From assembly GCA_027623995.1 (NCBI GenBank), contig JAQBUF010000028.1:1-40408 (forward strand): 40,408 nucleotides of DNA, written 5' to 3'. Shown in pieces: positions 3,176 through 28,561 of the stretch. Within the stretch, counting starts at the first letter, position 1, and each line of letters begins with the position of its first letter. The notes beneath the pieces are model-generated. The model was not told the DNA's origin. It saw only the letters and a list, made by a program, of their open reading frames with translations, and searched no databases. The translations under genes and the position numbers were made by a program. Source of the DNA: Nitrospirota bacterium (GTDB lineage Bacteria > Nitrospirota > Nitrospiria > Nitrospirales > UBA8639).

Positions 3176-3637
3176 ATGCCTATTAATCTAAGGTCAGCCC
3201 TTCCAGATCTACTCCCAAAAGCAATTGCTTGGGCTGAGACCCATGCCCAAGAAATAGCGAATTCTGGAAGAACACTCAACGAGTCAGAAATGGCTCTTGC
3301 TAGTGAAGTTGGCGTACAGGATCCGAGTCAAATCCGGATTTCCCTTGTAAGACACCTTCCTCTTCCCGATGATGCTGAACTTCGAGAAGCCTCACTGCAA
3401 ACAGGTCTTCTAGGAGCAAACATGGTCGGGCTTACGCTTGGGTACTCTGTATTAGTCTGTAAAGGTCATTTAACCCAACGCCTTCTTTCCCACGAATTCA
3501 GGCACGTCTACCAATACGAATGTCATGGCTCCATTGCTGGGTTCCTTCCACCTTACCTCCAACAAATCATCGAGTTTGGATATGCGAGTTGCCCTCTAGA
3601 GCTGGATGCAAGGGCCCATGAAATTAATGAATTTTAA
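3176..3637 (+). CDS. conserved hypothetical protein with HExxH metallopeptidase motif
   Basis: A 153-residue protein. The key segment is LLSHEFRHVYQYE (about residues 102-114), with HEFRH fitting the zinc-binding HExxH pattern, and a downstream PLELDARAHEIN segment in which the glutamate could be the third ligand, as in gluzincins. The N-terminal LPDLLPKAIAWAETHAQ and TGLLGANMVGLTLGYSV segments recall a small conserved hypothetical family I have met in proteobacteria; its function is unknown to me. No signal peptide or TM segment is seen, so it is probably cytosolic. It lies 80 bp after the TIR gene and the two may form one unit, though no good Shine-Dalgarno precedes ATG 3176. Peptidase activity is inferred from the motif only. 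Confidence 0.7.
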   Translation: MPINLRSALPDLLPKAIAWAETHAQEIANSGRTLNESEMALASEVGVQDPSQIRISLVRHLPLPDDAELREASLQTGLLGANMVGLTLGYSVLVCKGHLTQRLLSHEFRHVYQYECHGSIAGFLPPYLQQIIEFGYASCPLELDARAHEINEF

Positions 3638-3680
3638 AAATGGTACAGACAATTTTGTAGGATCGGCTTTGGGAGTTAAC

Positions 3681-3902
3681 CGCGTTGAGCGCGGCGGAGC
3701 CTCCTTACCGAATCTGACTCTTTGGCGAAGACTGTTTGAGCGCAGCGAGTTTCTGAGCCATCTTGATTCGGTAAGGAGGCGGAGGGGCCACGGAGAACCT
3801 GCTCTTAGCAGGATCGGAGGGGACGCGCACGGGCGGAAATGGTTTTGGGCACTTTTGCCGAAACAAAAGTACCTCGTCGTGCCGGGGCGAAACCCGGCTT
3901 TA
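3681..3902 (-). repeat. structured repeat family 1, copy C
   Basis: Minus-strand copy starting 50 bp after the stop of the minus-strand ORF6N gene. Hairpin 1 is GCCGGG/CCCGGC, where copies A and B have GCAGGG/CCCTGC: an A-T pair replaced by C-G on both sides. Hairpin 2 is GGTACTTTTG/CAAAAGTGCC. The long stem is a perfect 15 bp (3700-3714 with 3765-3779). The variable region has its own small hairpin, CCTGCT/AGCAGG. This copy fills the gap between the two convergent genes. Confidence 0.9.
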
Positions 3903-3952
3903 TAATAAAATTCCAAACCGAATTCCCATTTGAAGACCAGGCGCTGTTAGGC

Positions 3953-4474
3953 TTATTCTCGATGGCGAAGGTAGCCGATTTGCTTCTTTGAGGATTTCGG
4001 AGGGTCCAAGAGTTTTTTGAGTTGGTCATACAGCACAACAATTTCTTTATCATGCTTCTCAACTTTCCTGGCCAGCTCTTTATTGGTCGACAGCATTTCC
4101 CGTAGCCGGACAAACGTATCCATGATGGCGATATTGATTTGAATAGCCTGCTTACTTTTGAGGACGCTGGAAAGCATAGCCACCCCTCGCTCTGTAAAAG
4201 CATAAGGTGGCCTTCGTAGTCCCATTTTTGCAGATGGATTGGATATCACAATTTGTGATCTCCAATATTCAAATTCTTCTTCTGAAAGCTGAAACATAAA
4301 ATGAGTAGGAAACCGCTCAATGTTTCGTTTTACAGCCTGGACCAAGGCACGGGTTTCAACACGGTATAAATCTGCCAGATCGTAATCCAGCATCACTTTT
4401 TCGCCACGGATCAGGTAAATAGCACTGGCAATACGTTCAATGGGAACTAAGGATTGTTGGGTTCTCTTTGCCAT
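3953..4474 (-). CDS. ORF6N domain protein
   Basis: A 173-residue protein whose first ~95 residues match the ORF6N/KilA-N-type DNA-binding domain: IYLIRGEKVMLDYDLADLY, VKRNIERFPTHFMFQLSEEE, and PYAFTERGVAMLSSVL. The remainder is a helical region (TFVRLREMLSTNKELARKVEKH) likely to form a coiled coil. ORF6N proteins are found in phages, where they resemble antirepressors, and as lone chromosomal genes of unknown role. This one has no phage genes around it. Length is normal for the stand-alone chromosomal form. Its 3' side carries repeat copy C. Confidence 0.88.
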   Translation of the reverse strand: MAKRTQQSLVPIERIASAIYLIRGEKVMLDYDLADLYRVETRALVQAVKRNIERFPTHFMFQLSEEEFEYWRSQIVISNPSAKMGLRRPPYAFTERGVAMLSSVLKSKQAIQINIAIMDTFVRLREMLSTNKELARKVEKHDKEIVVLYDQLKKLLDPPKSSKKQIGYLRHRE

Positions 4475-4550
4475 AAATTGACTGTGCCGATCACGTTAGG
4501 AACTGTCAAGATGAAAAACCTTATAAATGTTCATGTCTAATTGTGCTCTC

Positions 4551-5052
4551 CAGCGTTGGGCGCGGCTGGGCCGCCGCCCCGAATCCAACTTCTCTGGCGA
4601 GGACTGTCTGAGCGCAGCGAGTTTCGGAGCCATCTTGATTCGGGGCGGTGGACCAGGCACCCGCAGGGACGCGCACGGGCGGAAATGGGGACCAGTTACA
4701 ATTTTGGTGGAGGCGATACCTCTTGAGAGCTTTCTTTCTTGTGTAGCTGCACGATCTCACCAGCCTCCGCCGTAGCGGCTTCGCGCAGGCAGGTCGTGCC
4801 TCTTCCCGTGCATCATGGGCCACTGACGTATGGAAGAAGCAGCATGAGATGCTGCCGCTACAGGAAAGACTGGACGACATCATGCGGTCGAAAGGGGAGA
4901 AGTGAAGCCATGGTCCGGTCGAACTCGTTAGGGCATAACCAAGCAAGGGGCTCACCTCACTCCACCAAAATTGCGATTGATCCGGAAATGGTTTTGGGTC
5001 CTTTTGCCGAAACAATAGGACCTCGTCGTGCCGGGGCGAAACCCGGCTTTAT
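4551..5052 (-). repeat. structured repeat family 1, copy D, split by an insertion
   Basis: Minus-strand copy in two parts, 4551-4688 and 4983-5052. Removing 4689-4982 and one copy of the 9 bp duplication restores a continuous element that matches copy C base by base across the junction (GGGCGGAAATGG then TTTTGGG). Hairpin 1 is GCCGGG/CCCGGC, hairpin 2 is GGTCCTATTG/CAAAAGGACC with one mismatch, and the long stem pairs 4571-4585 with 4637-4651 with one mismatch. It lies about 130 bp after the stop of the minus-strand DUF4340 gene. Confidence 0.88.
4689..4982. mobile_element. 294 bp MITE-like insertion with TIRs and a 9 bp target duplication
   Basis: The ends are imperfect terminal inverted repeats: 23 bp at 4689-4711 pair with 4960-4982 with 19 identities (shared core CAATTTTGGTGGA). 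The sequence CGGAAATGG is present on both sides (4680-4688 and 4983-4991) but only once in the intact repeat copies, so it is a target-site duplication. There is no transposase. The inside holds a GCAGCAT/ATGCTGC hairpin (4839-4855) and a short open frame ending LPLQERLDDIMRSKGEK that I cannot assign. A 9 bp duplication fits several IS families, so the parent element is not identified. Confidence 0.85.
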
Positions 5053-5127
5053 TAAACTTCAAAACAATTCTGTATTTGGATGGGAAGATTGTTGGAAGCG
5101 AGAAGGGAAAGACTCTACCTCCCCTAA

Positions 5128-5148
5128 CCCCTCCTTACAAAGGAGGGG
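5128..5148. repeat. GC-rich hairpin downstream of the DUF4340 gene
   Basis: CCCCTCCTT and AAGGAGGGG form a perfect 9 bp stem with a 3-base loop, inside the sequence CCCCTAACCCCTCCTT. It lies 38 bp past the stop of the minus-strand DUF4340 gene. It has no clean U-tract but could protect or end that transcript. A similar CCCCCTT/AAGGGGG hairpin is at 23945-23971. Confidence 0.6.
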
Positions 5149-5185
5149 AAAAGATAATGACAATTTGCATTGGAAGAAGTAAGAG

Positions 5186-6337
5186 CTAAGGCTTCTTAAT
5201 CAGGTCTTCAGGCTTTTTGCGGATGGTGTCGGCGCGGAATTTTGGGATGACGTACACCCAATTGGCTACTTTTTTATTGAGGGCTTCGATTTCGGCTATA
5301 ACTTCTGCTTCTGGTTTAATCTTTGGTGGTTTCGGTTTTTCGGCTTCTTTCTTTTCCGTATCCTTATTATCAGCACTCTCCTGGTCGGCTTGTTCCTCGG
5401 ATTCTGATTTTTCCTCAGGTTTTGGTTTCCAGATCAGCTCAGCATTGAAGGTTGCCGATACCTTCACGTAATTTTTCTCGTCTTTGCGAAGCAATTTCAC
5501 TGTCCCTTCCAAGCCGTCAAAGGTCTGAAAGGTCGCAGTGACCACGCTCTTATCATCAAAGGAAACTTCGCTCTGCGGTTGGACATCATCTAACAACAGT
5601 GACGTCACAGTGGAGACAACATTGTTCACCGCAAATTGCGATTGGACTTCTTTCCCCTTTGGAAGATTTATTACTTTGAAATCTGAACCGCCAGGTTTTT
5701 GCTTTTCCAATATGAGTTTAGCGTTTCCCGGATGCGTAATGTTGACGCGTCGTACACGTTTCGGCTCGACTTCCAAGAAATCCTTGTCCAACCATTCGCT
5801 GGGAATTTTCTCAACCGAAAATTTCCCAAGAGCCAACCACGTTTGCGGATCCCCAGGTATACGAACATACACTTCATCCTGACCAAGACTGCCTTTGGAA
5901 GGTTGTTGCTTGCCGACAATGACATCCGCCATTGCGGCTCCTGCTGAATCCTTGAGAGCTACTCTCATGGATAACGACCCTTCAGGCTCCACATCTTTTA
6001 GGCCAAGCTTCTCATACAATTCCGGCTTCTTGGTTTTGGCCTCGATTATTTTTAATTCTCCCAAACCGACGACCGCCGCTCGAATTTTTTCCATATTGGC
6101 CGGGTAGTCGTGTTTTTCCTTCACGGTCCACAATTCACCCTTTCGAACAATCGTGATGGTTCCAGTTTGCGCAGTCACCACCAGTTCGGAAACATCGTTG
6201 ATTTTTGACATTAACCCCTGGAAAAGATGTTGACCCGTTTGGGCTGGCGTTGCACCATGTTGTTGAGACACCAACAACGCCGTACCAATCAGCACAACGG
6301 CAATGACTCCCATGATAGTTAAAGTTTTGGTGTTCAT
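5186..6337 (-). CDS. DUF4340 domain protein
   Basis: A 383-residue protein with one N-terminal TM segment (about residues 7-24) and a long extracytoplasmic part. Sequences such as LVVTAQTGTITIVRKGELWTVKE, ANMEKIRAAVVGLGELKIIE and YEKLGLKDVE are typical of DUF4340, whose members sit beside Gld-type ABC transporters and GldG-like proteins. Residues ~300-340 are a low-complexity E/K/P-rich insert (EEKSESEEQADQESADNKDT). It is the last gene of the minus-strand cluster and follows the GldG-like gene by ~120 bp. Function is unknown; an envelope role in complex with the ABC system is inferred from context. Confidence 0.88.
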   Translation of the reverse strand: MNTKTLTIMGVIAVVLIGTALLVSQQHGATPAQTGQHLFQGLMSKINDVSELVVTAQTGTITIVRKGELWTVKEKHDYPANMEKIRAAVVGLGELKIIEAKTKKPELYEKLGLKDVEPEGSLSMRVALKDSAGAAMADVIVGKQQPSKGSLGQDEVYVRIPGDPQTWLALGKFSVEKIPSEWLDKDFLEVEPKRVRRVNITHPGNAKLILEKQKPGGSDFKVINLPKGKEVQSQFAVNNVVSTVTSLLLDDVQPQSEVSFDDKSVVTATFQTFDGLEGTVKLLRKDEKNYVKVSATFNAELIWKPKPEEKSESEEQADQESADNKDTEKKEAEKPKPPKIKPEAEVIAEIEALNKKVANWVYVIPKFRADTIRKKPEDLIKKP

Positions 6338-6352
6338 TGAATCGTGGTTACT

Positions 6353-6407
6353 TGTAGCGGCAGCACCTCATGCTGTCTAAAGGGCGCCATTAGATGGCGC
6401 AGCTACA
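6353..6407. repeat. three-way-junction hairpin repeat
   Basis: TGTAGC (6353-6358) pairs with GCTACA (6402-6407) and encloses two further hairpins, CAGCA/TGCTG (6361-6375) and GCGCCAT/ATGGCGC (6384-6400). The first arm, TGTAGCGGCAGCA...CTCATGCTG, also occurs in reverse inside the MITE-like element (4839-4864). It lies in the gap between the GldG-like and DUF4340 genes. Confidence 0.75.
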
Positions 6408-6455
6408 TAGGCCCCCTCTCGCCTTTCCTTTTCGGACGAGGGGATGGCTAATTGT

Positions 6456-8390
6456 TTAATTGACTTTGGCATTCCGGCGTCGGCGTGCTTTGTAGGCACT
6501 GAACACCACACCGCCAACAACAATGACGAGTGGCATGAGTCCAATATTGAGGAACTTCACTATGCCTTCCAAGGTTTCAATATTTTTTTGCAATTCATGT
6601 TGAACACCACGGAGTTCTTTTCGCGTAGAGACCAGCTCTTGCCGAAATCCATCGAGCGCGGCTTGTTGCTCGCCACTTAGAATAATCGTCGTTTGATCTT
6701 CTTTTGTCTTTTGTAAATCTTGGATCTTTCGCTCCGTATCTTTTAAACGGTTTTGCAACACCTGCTCCTTCTGGCGATATTGCATTTCCGCTTCTTGTTG
6801 AATGGCTCGGACCAATGTAAAGGGGCGCGTAAAACTCCCTCGGCTTCTGACCGTGATCAGATCACTACTTCCCGTCAGGTTGTCCAACGCATTCGTGACA
6901 AAACTATTGTTCGCCGATGTGGGAACCCCGATTCGCTGCCCAAGGAAGTTTTGTACTTGCACCCAAAACCGGTCCTGCAGCATGTCGGTATCCGCCACCA
7001 CAATCACGTTGATAGGGTTGGCAGATTCCGTGAGATGGGGTTGATCCTTTGATTCTGGTTTGACTTGCCCAACGTCATCGTCTGTACTATCGGATTCTGT
7101 GGCTTTGGGTTTGCCCTCGGGAAATGCTGTTTTGACTTTCCCTGTTATCCGCGCTGCCATCGTAAGTTTTTTTCCTTCAGGACGATAGGTCTGGAGCAAG
7201 CCTTCTACATCAGGCATAAACATCAAGCGCGACGTATCGATCTGCATCGCCTGGTCATCAGACTCGACCAATGAAATGAAGTCGATGTCACTGCCTTCCT
7301 TCTTTTGAAGAATGCCAGCGGACGCAAAGGTCAGACTTGGAAGTTTGGCGGTGATCACATCTTCCCTATTCAAATGTTTCGGTGTGAGATCAATCCACAG
7401 GGGATAGTCGGCGACAAACGTGCGAGACTGTTTTTGGAAATTTACTTTTTTCGCGAGCGGCAAATCACCAACCACCTTACCCTTGACTAATTCAATCCCC
7501 CAAGCATCAAACACCTTTCCCAAGTCCGAGTTTCGCGGGCCTTGCATGCCCATGGGATTCCGGGGATTAGGCGGAACGCGATCGGCTTCACTATGGGGAT
7601 CGACAAACACCAGGGCTCGGCCTCCACGCAGCACAAACTGGTCGATGGCATAGAGAGTCAGTTCACTTAACCTCTTGGGATGGACGATCATGAGGATCTC
7701 AATGTCCTCAGGTATATCCTTCACATCCTTGTCCAACGGCTTCACCTGCATGACTTCACGGATGGTCTCCAAAATCATCCAGGGTGGGCTTCCACCTTGC
7801 CCCGGCATCATCCCCATTTGGGGACCACCCTCAAGAGGCAGGGTACTCAGGAGCCCAACGACTTTGGGTTTGGGATTGGATAATTGATAGACTAATTTGG
7901 TGAGATCGTATTCTAAGAATTCTTCACGGTCGGGTTGAAAGAACGGAATCAGTTCTTGATCATCGGTTGAACTCGTTCCAATCAAACCAAAATAGAATTG
8001 CACGTTCCCATTATTCAACGGAACGCCTTGAAGGCCATACCCCACGGCACGATCTTCTTCTTCCGAAAAAGGCTCTGGATCGATGATGTGGAGATTTACA
8101 TTTCCACCTGCAGCTTGCTCATACTCTTGCAAGAGTTCCATCACACGGTTGGCATAGCTGTTTATGCCGGGCAATCCTGTGGCCAGTTTCTTGGACAGGT
8201 AAAACCGCAACGTGATGGGCTCTTCGAGGCCCTGTAAAATATTTTTGGTCCCTTCGGACAGGGTATAGAGCTGTTGATCCGTCAGATCAAAACGAGCCGA
8301 ACGTAATGCCACATTACTCAACACATTCACGGCAAAAAACAACACGACCGCGATGAGTAATCCACTTCCTGTTAAGAATTTTGTACTCAT
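6456..8390 (-). CDS. GldG-like ABC transporter auxiliary protein
   Basis: A 644-residue protein from ATG 8390 (MSTKFLTGSG), preferred over an upstream in-frame ATG at 8432 because AAAGG lies just before it and the first TM then falls at the N-terminus. Features: N-terminal TM, the segment RFDLTDQQLYTLSEGTKNIL characteristic of the GldG/ABC_transp_aux family, LRFYLSK, a Rossmann-like extracytoplasmic core with DPEPFSEEEDRA and FVDPHSEAD, a coiled coil of ~80 residues (RQKEQVLQNRLKDTERKIQDL), and a C-terminal TM followed by RRRRN. GldG homologues work with a GldA/GldF ABC transporter, whose genes lie immediately upstream. Gliding itself is not implied, since the family is widespread in non-gliders. 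Confidence 0.88.
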   Translation of the reverse strand: MSTKFLTGSGLLIAVVLFFAVNVLSNVALRSARFDLTDQQLYTLSEGTKNILQGLEEPITLRFYLSKKLATGLPGINSYANRVMELLQEYEQAAGGNVNLHIIDPEPFSEEEDRAVGYGLQGVPLNNGNVQFYFGLIGTSSTDDQELIPFFQPDREEFLEYDLTKLVYQLSNPKPKVVGLLSTLPLEGGPQMGMMPGQGGSPPWMILETIREVMQVKPLDKDVKDIPEDIEILMIVHPKRLSELTLYAIDQFVLRGGRALVFVDPHSEADRVPPNPRNPMGMQGPRNSDLGKVFDAWGIELVKGKVVGDLPLAKKVNFQKQSRTFVADYPLWIDLTPKHLNREDVITAKLPSLTFASAGILQKKEGSDIDFISLVESDDQAMQIDTSRLMFMPDVEGLLQTYRPEGKKLTMAARITGKVKTAFPEGKPKATESDSTDDDVGQVKPESKDQPHLTESANPINVIVVADTDMLQDRFWVQVQNFLGQRIGVPTSANNSFVTNALDNLTGSSDLITVRSRGSFTRPFTLVRAIQQEAEMQYRQKEQVLQNRLKDTERKIQDLQKTKEDQTTIILSGEQQAALDGFRQELVSTRKELRGVQHELQKNIETLEGIVKFLNIGLMPLVIVVGGVVFSAYKARRRRNAKVN

Positions 8391-24311: not shown

Positions 24312-24710
24312 ATGTATTTGATCGATACTTCGGTCTGGGTCGATTTTTTCAGGAATCAGTCAACGCAAGCTGTCGCGCGTTTTGAAGAAATTCTTGAGGA
24401 AGATATTCCATATGGCATTACCAGTGTCATTTATCAGGAGGTCTTGCAAGGTGCAGATTCTCCAAAAGACTTCTCAAAGCTTCAGTCTTACCTGGCCTCT
24501 CAAAGGTTCTATCATCCCCTCGACCCCGTTCTCAGCTATGAACAAGCGGCTGATATGTATTTCCAATGTCGTCGTCAGGGCATCACCGTTCGAAGTACTA
24601 TCGATTGCCTCATCGCCCAGATTGCGATTGAACACAAACTTCGGCTACTCCACAGTGACCGGGATTTCACGAAAATGGCCACGGTCGCTAAAAGTTTAAA
24701 ACTCGCCTAA
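24312..24710 (+). CDS. vapC: VapC-type PIN-domain ribonuclease toxin
   Basis: A 132-residue PIN domain. MYLIDTSVWVDFFRN gives the first acidic residue, ITSVIYQEVLQG the second (E), RSTIDCLIAQIA the third and LLHSDRDFTKMA the fourth, the usual magnesium-binding quartet of VapC RNases that cut tRNA or rRNA. Length is normal. It is immediately downstream of vapB. Copy E of the structured repeat begins at the base after its stop codon. Confidence 0.93.
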   Translation: MYLIDTSVWVDFFRNQSTQAVARFEEILEEDIPYGITSVIYQEVLQGADSPKDFSKLQSYLASQRFYHPLDPVLSYEQAADMYFQCRRQGITVRSTIDCLIAQIAIEHKLRLLHSDRDFTKMATVAKSLKLA

Positions 24711-24917
24711 TAAGAGGTCCTTTTGTTTCGGCAAAAGGACCCAAAACCCTTTTTGCCCGTGCGTGTCCCTCCAGACAGTGGCCAAAAAGCTCGCCATTCT
24801 CTTCCGGATGTCTCCGCCTCCGCACCGAATCAAGATGGCCCAGAAACTCGCTACGCTCAAACATTCTTCGCCAAAGAAGTCGATTCGGTGCTGCGGCTCC
24901 GCCGCGCCCAACGCAGG
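24711..24917 (+). repeat. structured repeat family 1, copy E (no hairpin 1)
   Basis: Begins at the base after the vapC stop. Hairpin 2 is GGTCCTTTTG/CAAAAGGACC, a perfect 10 bp stem. The long stem GCACCGAATC/GATTCGGTGC pairs 24822-24831 with 24882-24891. Hairpin 1 is missing, so the copy is 5'-truncated or fused to the gene. The linker is longer than in the other copies. Confidence 0.88.
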
Positions 24918-24999
24918 GTGAGGTGAGCATTTGATATTGCTAACGTTTAAAAACACTCAACAAAAAAATTGACCTCAAACCCTCAAACTTAGTTTACTC

Positions 25000-25821: not shown

Positions 25822-25907
25822 AGGGCATTGTCATCAATAGAAGCAAATTGTAGAGTGAACAGAAATAAGGACTAAGCCAAACAAAGATTATTTGATTGAA
25901 ACTGTTT

Positions 25908-26146
25908 TCACGGATGATTTTCTTGTGGAAGCGATTCAGCGGGAGGGTCTTCTTTCTTCTTTTCTAGGGCGAAGATGATGAGGAGGGAGACGACGCCGAC
26001 GCTGATAGCGCTATCCGCGACGCTGAAGGCTGGCCAGTGGTAGCCATTGATGTGGAAGTCGAGGAAGTCGACGACTTCGCCGTATCTTAATCGATCTATG
26101 AGATTGCCGATGGCGCCGCCGAAGATGCTGGGGACCGTTAACTGCC
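25908..26146 (-). pseudogene. 3' fragment of lspA, second copy
   Basis: The minus strand from about 26146 to the TGA at 25908 encodes the last ~79 residues of Lsp[20 protein letters not shown] onward. About four residues differ from the intact LspA at 28031-28561; both catalytic-site regions, NLIDR and VADSA, are kept. The 5' two thirds are absent. Identity to the intact copy starts at GQLTV and stops exactly at the stop codon, where the flanks diverge. Because mostly silent changes separate the two, the fragment looks like a relict of a functional gene from a close relative. Confidence 0.9.
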
Positions 26147-26406
26147 CATTAAACTAGGGGCAAGAATTTTTAAATTCTTCATAAGTCGCCATGCAACTTC
26201 CCTACTAAACCAAAAACGACAAAAATTTGTTTCAATCAATACCCGACCTATGCGGCAAGGGCTTCTAAAGACTCCTGATTCATTTTAATCCTCCAAATTT
26301 CTCATCCAGTTACATAATTGGATTACAATAAATCATTTAAAAACATGTAGTTACAATTGTAGAACCTATCACAAAACAGAATCTAGTTACATCACGCTAC
26401 ATACCG
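26147..26406. other. AT-rich non-coding region with palindrome and repeated AGTTACA
   Basis: AAGAATTTTTAAATTCTT (26162-26179) is a perfect palindrome with 8 bp arms. AGTTACA recurs at 26308-26314, 26349-26355 and 26385-26391. No gene is seen. Because the next gene ends at 26407, these repeats lie downstream of it. Confidence 0.45.
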
Positions 26407-27867: not shown

Positions 27868-28030
27868 ACGTTGACTCCAAAAAGAATAGGAAAATAGGCT
27901 AAAGAATTTGGGTTAGAAACAAATTGTTGAAAAGCATGGAAATTTTTCTCGTATTTTTCGACTAGATAGGATTCAGAGTTTTTTCCATGCCAATCACACA
28001 TTATAGAACACCTCACTTTTGAAATGAGAT

Positions 28031-28561
28031 TTACGGATGATTCTCTTGTGGTAGGGGTTCGGGTGGTGGGTCTTCTTTCTTTTTTTCTAGGGCGAAGATA
28101 ATCAATAGAGAGACTACGCCGACGCTGATAGCGCTATCCGCGACGTTGAAGGCTGGCCAGTGGTAGCCATTGATGTGGAAGTCGAGGAAGTCTACGACTT
28201 CGCCGTATCGCAGACGGTCGATGAGATTGCCGATTGCCCCGCCAAAAATACTTGAAACCGTAAGCTGGCCCCACAAATCGTCGGGATGCAATCGACAGAA
28301 AATCGTTCCTAAGAGGCCTAACGCAAAGATGGACGTTCCTACGAAGAAGATTAATCGGAAGGCGCTATTTGATTCCGCAAAAATGCCGAAGGCGGCACCG
28401 GGGTTGCGGATATACGTCAGATTGAAAAAGTCTTTAATGACCGGAATGGACTCATGCAGATGCATGGTATGCATGATGGCCATTTTGGTGATTTGATCCA
28501 ACGCGACTAGGATCAGGCTCACGCCGACCAACAACAAATACCGACGCCCGCCATCATTCAC
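28031..28561 (-). CDS. lspA: signal peptidase II (lipoprotein signal peptidase)
   Basis: A 176-residue, four-TM protein that cleaves prolipoprotein signal peptides after lipidation. The two catalytic aspartates lie in [21 protein letters not shown] and [11 protein letters not shown]; the N-terminus has VALDQITKM and the NPGAAFGI motif. It overlaps the ileS stop by 4 bp, the usual ileS-lspA pairing. The C-terminal tail KKKEDPPPEPLPQENHP is a little extended. A second, truncated copy of its 3' end lies at 25908-26146. Confidence 0.95.
   Translation of the reverse strand: MNDGGRRYLLLVGVSLILVALDQITKMAIMHTMHLHESIPVIKDFFNLTYIRNPGAAFGIFAESNSAFRLIFFVGTSIFALGLLGTIFCRLHPDDLWGQLTVSSIFGGAIGNLIDRLRYGEVVDFLDFHINGYHWPAFNVADSAISVGVVSLLIIFALEKKKEDPPPEPLPQENHP

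Follow-up and report, generated by a model that had tools for sequence, protein, structure and literature searches.

Introduction

A MITE linked to the ISL3 family is already known from Methanosarcina acetivorans, where the partner of ISMac21 (179 bp, 6 copies) has inverted ends of about 22 bp and a 7 bp target duplication (PMC3852290). In these traits it is comparable to the element described here. In contrast, it is archaeal and of another sequence, and the table that describes it mentions no nested palindromes. MITEs of the IS6 family, such as MITEBth2 and MITEHarch3 (227 and 336 bp; PMC6807381, PMC7986276), share GG ends and the 8-bp duplications of their family with the present element. 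However, their 14-bp IS6 ends, in which the G at position 7 is conserved, fit it more poorly.

The ISAon1 family (ISL3-like DDE; NCBIfam NF049917/NF049916) has similar GG ends, 8-bp duplications were found in two examined elements, and the end of an intact member from a genus mate corresponds to that of a sister MITE described below. Unlike this family, the present element lacks a transposase gene, and the search of relatives revealed no autonomous element with exactly these ends. The interior, on the other hand, resembles GTAG REP/BIME, with a GTAG tag, short palindromes and an inverted pair; such GTAG-tagged palindromes are thought to be mobilised by RAYT (PMC3733652). Here, in contrast, the palindromes are enclosed in what is probably a DDE-type MITE, and one of the loops holds another hairpin.

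The element is located in contig JAQBUF010000028.1 of a Nitrospirota bacterium (GCA_027623995.1), of which the whole stretch of 40,408 nucleotides was analysed (the window). It is ordinary in kind and new as a MITE family, an ISL3-linked MITE being already known from Methanosarcina. The literature searched, in which the name ISAon1 does not occur, revealed no paper on a MITE of the ISAon1 group.

Boundaries and ends of the insertion

The insertion is real, and the inserted element is a MITE of 295 bp located at 4689-4983 on the plus strand. It begins with GGACC, finishes with GATCC and is flanked by two 8-bp copies of the target, GGAAATGG, at 4681-4688 and 4984-4991, as evidenced by the window sequence and by the comparison of copies. 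In the preliminary description both the insert and its duplication had been recognised, but with 294 bp (4689-4982) and 9 bp, respectively. The 9-mer CGGAAATGG is indeed found at 4680-4688 and repeated at 4983-4991, with the insert in between. Nevertheless, the duplication is 8 bp and not 9: when the element is taken to run from GG to CC, an exact 8-mer is obtained for eight copies and an exact 9-mer for none. The boundaries 4689 and 4983 bring the window copy into line with the others, its ends and duplication agreeing with those of nine other copies. The shared C is thus a coincidence, as the terminal C of the element equals the C preceding the target.

The ends, of the type GGATCARTCGCAATTTTGGTGGAG, are inverted repeats of 24 bp. 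The left one, GGACCAGTTACAATTTTGGTGGAG, is at 4689-4712 (plus strand) and the right one, GGATCAATCGCAATTTTGGTGGAG, at 4960-4983, read on the minus strand and defined by end comparison and pattern search. Both are identical at 20 of 24 positions, instead of the 19 of 23 given before, and not one of 20,000 shuffled versions of the element attained this value. In agreement with the earlier claim, the element displayed no coding capacity of note and no transposase gene.

Copies in the genome and in other assemblies

The assembly of the window's genome (3.13 Mb, 110 contigs, 99.7% complete) is fragmented, and contigs break off at these repeats. A search with the element resulted in 69 matches of two kinds, namely both-ended elements and the interior alone. 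When the end pattern was searched, 25 ends were found at up to 3 mismatches, against 0 for the reversed control pattern, which answers the earlier concern that no other copy with these ends might exist. Nine both-ended full-length copies and a degenerate one (C54) were identified, and a further three are cut off by the end of a contig. Seven own-genome copies have exact 8-bp duplications, namely those on C43 (window), C90, C65, C49, C105, C51 and C44; on C13 and C41 they match at 6 of 8 positions. The copies on C41, C44 and C49 are extended on one side by 82-83 bp, in which the end sequence is present a second time (L004:1500-1874, L010:1502-1842, L012:1418-1758). In the case of C44 and C49, the exact duplication was found at the outermost end.

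Among 197 relatives, the MITE ends are confined to genomes of the same family. In G004 (519 and 542 bp) and G062 (287 bp), the interior between these ends is unrelated. The end pattern gave no match in viral contigs. The dispersed copies, their length below about 500 bp without a transposase, and a target duplication of constant length (8 bp) are those of a MITE. The MITE-like reading proposed at the outset is therefore supported by ends, duplication, copy number and absent coding capacity.

Another copy was detected on JAJDDX010000026.1 (L087). It is 258 bp long, has an exact 8-bp duplication, CAAAACTC, and adjoins the same structured repeat as the window copy. L087, which was deposited under a Phycisphaerae MAG, is a contig of 4.5 kb and has a 374-aa transposase-like ORF between the repeat halves. 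The presence of the MITE and the structured repeat on this contig is either due to wrong binning or evidence of transfer. G069 and G035 also have a degenerate MITE-like end in the same helicase-like gene, at its 3' end (L093:1501, L094:1501). Apparently this is an old insertion common to both and read into the coding frame.

A sister family and a matching ISAon1 element

The alignment revealed a second family, MITE-II, with ends GGATCATACGSAATWTATGGTTCT. Its interior is common with the window MITE, while the ends and the subterminal sequence differ. The own genome contains 39 MITE-II ends, and exact 8-bp duplications were found at L015, L017 and in relatives. Taken over both MITE families, 14 exact duplications display a symmetric preference, with G/C at positions 1 and 8 and A/T at 3-5.

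In the genus mate G002, an intact element of 1427 bp (C31:245-1671, L135:245-1671) has a left end identical to that of MITE-II at 22 of 24 positions. No duplication was found for this element itself. Its 456-aa protein was assigned to the ISAon1 family (NCBIfam, 400.7 bits, cut-off 250) and carries an ISL3 DDE domain (Pfam). The ISAon1-type element of G002 is one likely source of transposase for MITE-II. Two orthologous decayed elements with MITE-II ends in G019 and G022 (L127:1419-3150 and L128:33-1769) contain a remnant of the ISAon1 transposase C-terminus just inside the end, which is the geometry of the intact element. They also have a 241-aa open frame with similarity to a fibronectin type III protein, and possibly represent a cargo transposon.

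Probable origin of the transposase

The window MITE end was compared with the ends of five IS groups (ISAon1, IS6, classical ISL3, IS1595 and IS256) by shuffled-end tests, in which the p values are uncorrected for the five groups and some ISAon1 ends were set by eye. Agreement was highest with ISAon1 ends, at 18/24 in the best case and 13.0 on average for the ten ends compared (p about 1e-4), and the variant of the end in G004 gave p 0.001 against ISAon1. For IS6 and classical ISL3 the values were 0.007-0.03, and for IS1595 and IS256 0.17-0.32. The best single match, at 18 of 24 positions, was GGATCACTCCGAATTTTGGGGCAT, an ISAon1 end from a plasmid of Persicobacter; the Persicobacter ends and those of Segatella were picked by eye from the flanks, and no duplication was found for them. 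With the G002 element, 15 of 24 positions are identical overall, and this similarity is due to the first 14 bases, of which 12 agree. Two ISAon1 elements of Bacteroidota plasmids (L285, L287) have exact 8-bp duplications.

IS1595 and IS256 were rejected as parents, since de novo recovery of their ends gave no match to the MITE. A classical ISL3 element on C82 of the own genome was rejected as well: its duplication, AAAAATAA, is 8 bp long, but no more than 12-13 of 24 end positions agree.

Mobilisation in trans by ISAon1 is best supported, based on the end sequence, the duplication size and a sister MITE that matches an intact ISAon1 element. It is quite likely that the MITE was moved in trans by an ISAon1-group (ISL3-like) DDE transposase into a pre-existing structured repeat, the interior being an enclosed GTAG palindrome pair. 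This transposase family is suggested by the end sequence, the duplication size and the interior common with the sister MITE. In such a process, a copy of the structured repeat would already be present at the target, and the ISAon1-group transposase, supplied in trans, would act on the 24-bp inverted ends. The ends would be joined to an AT-centred target that is cut with an 8-bp stagger, and gap filling would generate the GGAAATGG duplication. The inverted GTAG palindrome pair, which is repeated independently, would be enclosed between the ends.

Mobilisation by ISAon1 is inferred; against it, an ISAon1-type transposase was not found in the window's own genome, nor was an autonomous element with the exact ends found in 197 relatives or, with a looser pattern, in 49 genomes of the family, many of these assemblies being fragmented. 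Since the own genome is broken at these repeats, an intact parent could be missing from the assembly. A search with NF049917 across 396 genomes of the phylum at 1e-20 gave no match, the control being equally silent, and tblastn of transposases against the MITEs resulted in chance-level matches only.

Alternatively, the element could be an IS6-family MITE. An IS6 transposase would recognise GG-N-TC-N-GT-N-GCAAA ends and produce 8-bp duplications, single insertions being formed as a cointegrate followed by recombination. The 8-bp duplications and GGTTCTGTTGCAAA ends of the family (PMC7986276, PMC6807381) are in agreement with this, and the IS6 elements of relatives, including the genus mate G002, end in GGTTCTGTCGCAAATA, with 10-12 of the first 14 bases as in the MITE. 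However, the shuffling values of IS6 given above are poorer than that of ISAon1. Moreover, the inverted ends reach 24 bp here and 14 in IS6, and the G conserved at position 7 of IS6 is replaced by A at many MITE ends. No IS6 transposase above the cut-off was detected in the window's genome, and the sister MITE points to ISAon1. An IS6 origin is for these reasons distinctly unlikely.

Nested interior

The alignment of copies revealed three layers: the ends, an inverted GTAG/CTAC palindrome pair and an innermost hairpin. The pair reads GTAGCT GCACGATCTCATCGTGC ... GCAGCATGAGATGCTGC AGCTAC. In the window, the first GTAG-tagged palindrome (GTAGCT GCACGA ... TCGTGC) is located at 4743-4799 on the plus strand, with its loop filled by a 34-bp hairpin at 4760-4793. 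This palindrome is also found elsewhere without MITE ends. The second one (GCAGCAT GAG ATGCTGC CGCTAC), at 4839-4861, is inverted and lies on the minus strand, as evidenced by the window sequence and the alignment. The 34-bp hairpin is present in the window copy and some others and absent from the 258-bp copies; on C90 and C13 the second loop is occupied as well, by a different hairpin. In relatives of the same order the 34-bp hairpin was found again. A perfect stem of at least 6 pairs flanked it in 13 of 33 distinct occurrences, against 41 of 5000 random positions, in a set that is biased, since the loci were fetched through matches to this element.

Two further observations concern related palindromes. 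A short hairpin (CCTGCCTGCGCGAAGC...GGCAGG) recurs in the loops of other palindromes, in the own genome and in relatives (L016:135-242, L059:1513, L001:1581). In the window, an inverted GTAG-tagged palindrome pair without MITE ends was observed at 6353-6407. The arm that it was first said to have in common with the MITE is only approximate (GCAGCAC/CATGCTG vs GCAGCAT/ATGCTGC), but by eye both belong to the same class.

The inner palindrome pair also stands alone, without MITE ends, at many sites (e.g. L011). GTAG-tagged inverted palindrome pairs that are also found alone are the mark of REP/BIME, which here applies to the interior only. The pair itself might then be the mobile unit, moved by a RAYT-type HUH enzyme as thought for GTAG-tagged palindromes (PMC3733652), with the outer inverted ends as a by-product. 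Against this, exact 8-bp duplications were found at the outer ends in many copies and none is placed around the inner pair. In addition, the MITE ends in relatives also surround unrelated interiors, and we consider such a mobile unit highly improbable.

Of the features of this MITE, the nested interior might be regarded as the unusual one. It is conceivable, although rather doubtful, that the element is a stacked composite with layers that are mobile separately, in which a DDE-mobilised MITE surrounds a GTAG pair that a HUH enzyme could move, its loops being preferred insertion sites of further short hairpins, and that the two MITE families took up or exchanged this cargo.

Host repeat and order of events

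The MITE interrupts a structured repeat of the plus strand. Based on the alignment to other repeat copies, its left part spans 4547-4688 and its right part 4984-5052, the latter starting with the second copy of the duplication. When the flanks are joined, they align across the junction without interruption to four further copies of the repeat in the window (within 3651-3960, 921-1220, 1901-2220 and 24651-24960), and therefore the uninterrupted state was seen at paralogous sites only. The uninterrupted form of the locus between the ORF6N and DUF4340 genes would read CGGAAATGGTTTTGGG. The statement that removal of the insert restores the repeat exactly is correct at the junction; elsewhere the repeat copies differ. 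This copy of the structured repeat was first and the MITE second, as had been proposed, which is supported by the duplication and the uninterrupted paralogous sites. That the repeat tolerates interruption is a weaker point than claimed, since what is seen is one broken copy, and tolerance would mean that this copy still functions. The opposite view, a repeat copy differing by chance expansion or by an assembly join, could appeal to the fragmented assembly and the three truncated copies, but is practically negligible given the independent copies, which occupy different sites and are each flanked by an exact duplication of another sequence, and the copy in another deposited assembly.

The MITE sits between two minus-strand genes, about 200 bp downstream of the DUF4340 gene (5186-6337) and about 200 bp upstream of the ORF6N gene (3953-4474). 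A promoter scan around the element showed no promoter-like site, and thus no effect on the neighbouring genes is claimed. A single terminator-like hairpin (5030-5047) is part of the host repeat and is not above chance expectation. The Rfam search of 3500-6600 gave no match. Elsewhere in the window, a 252-bp direct repeat was observed at 25896-26147 and 28019-28270 (84% identical, 2123 bp apart).

Significance

With the MITE, events in this lineage can be placed in a relative order. Two MITE families are added, and the end of one of them links it to an intact ISAon1 element. The occurrence of two families with different ends and one interior suggests that bacterial MITEs may share cargo.
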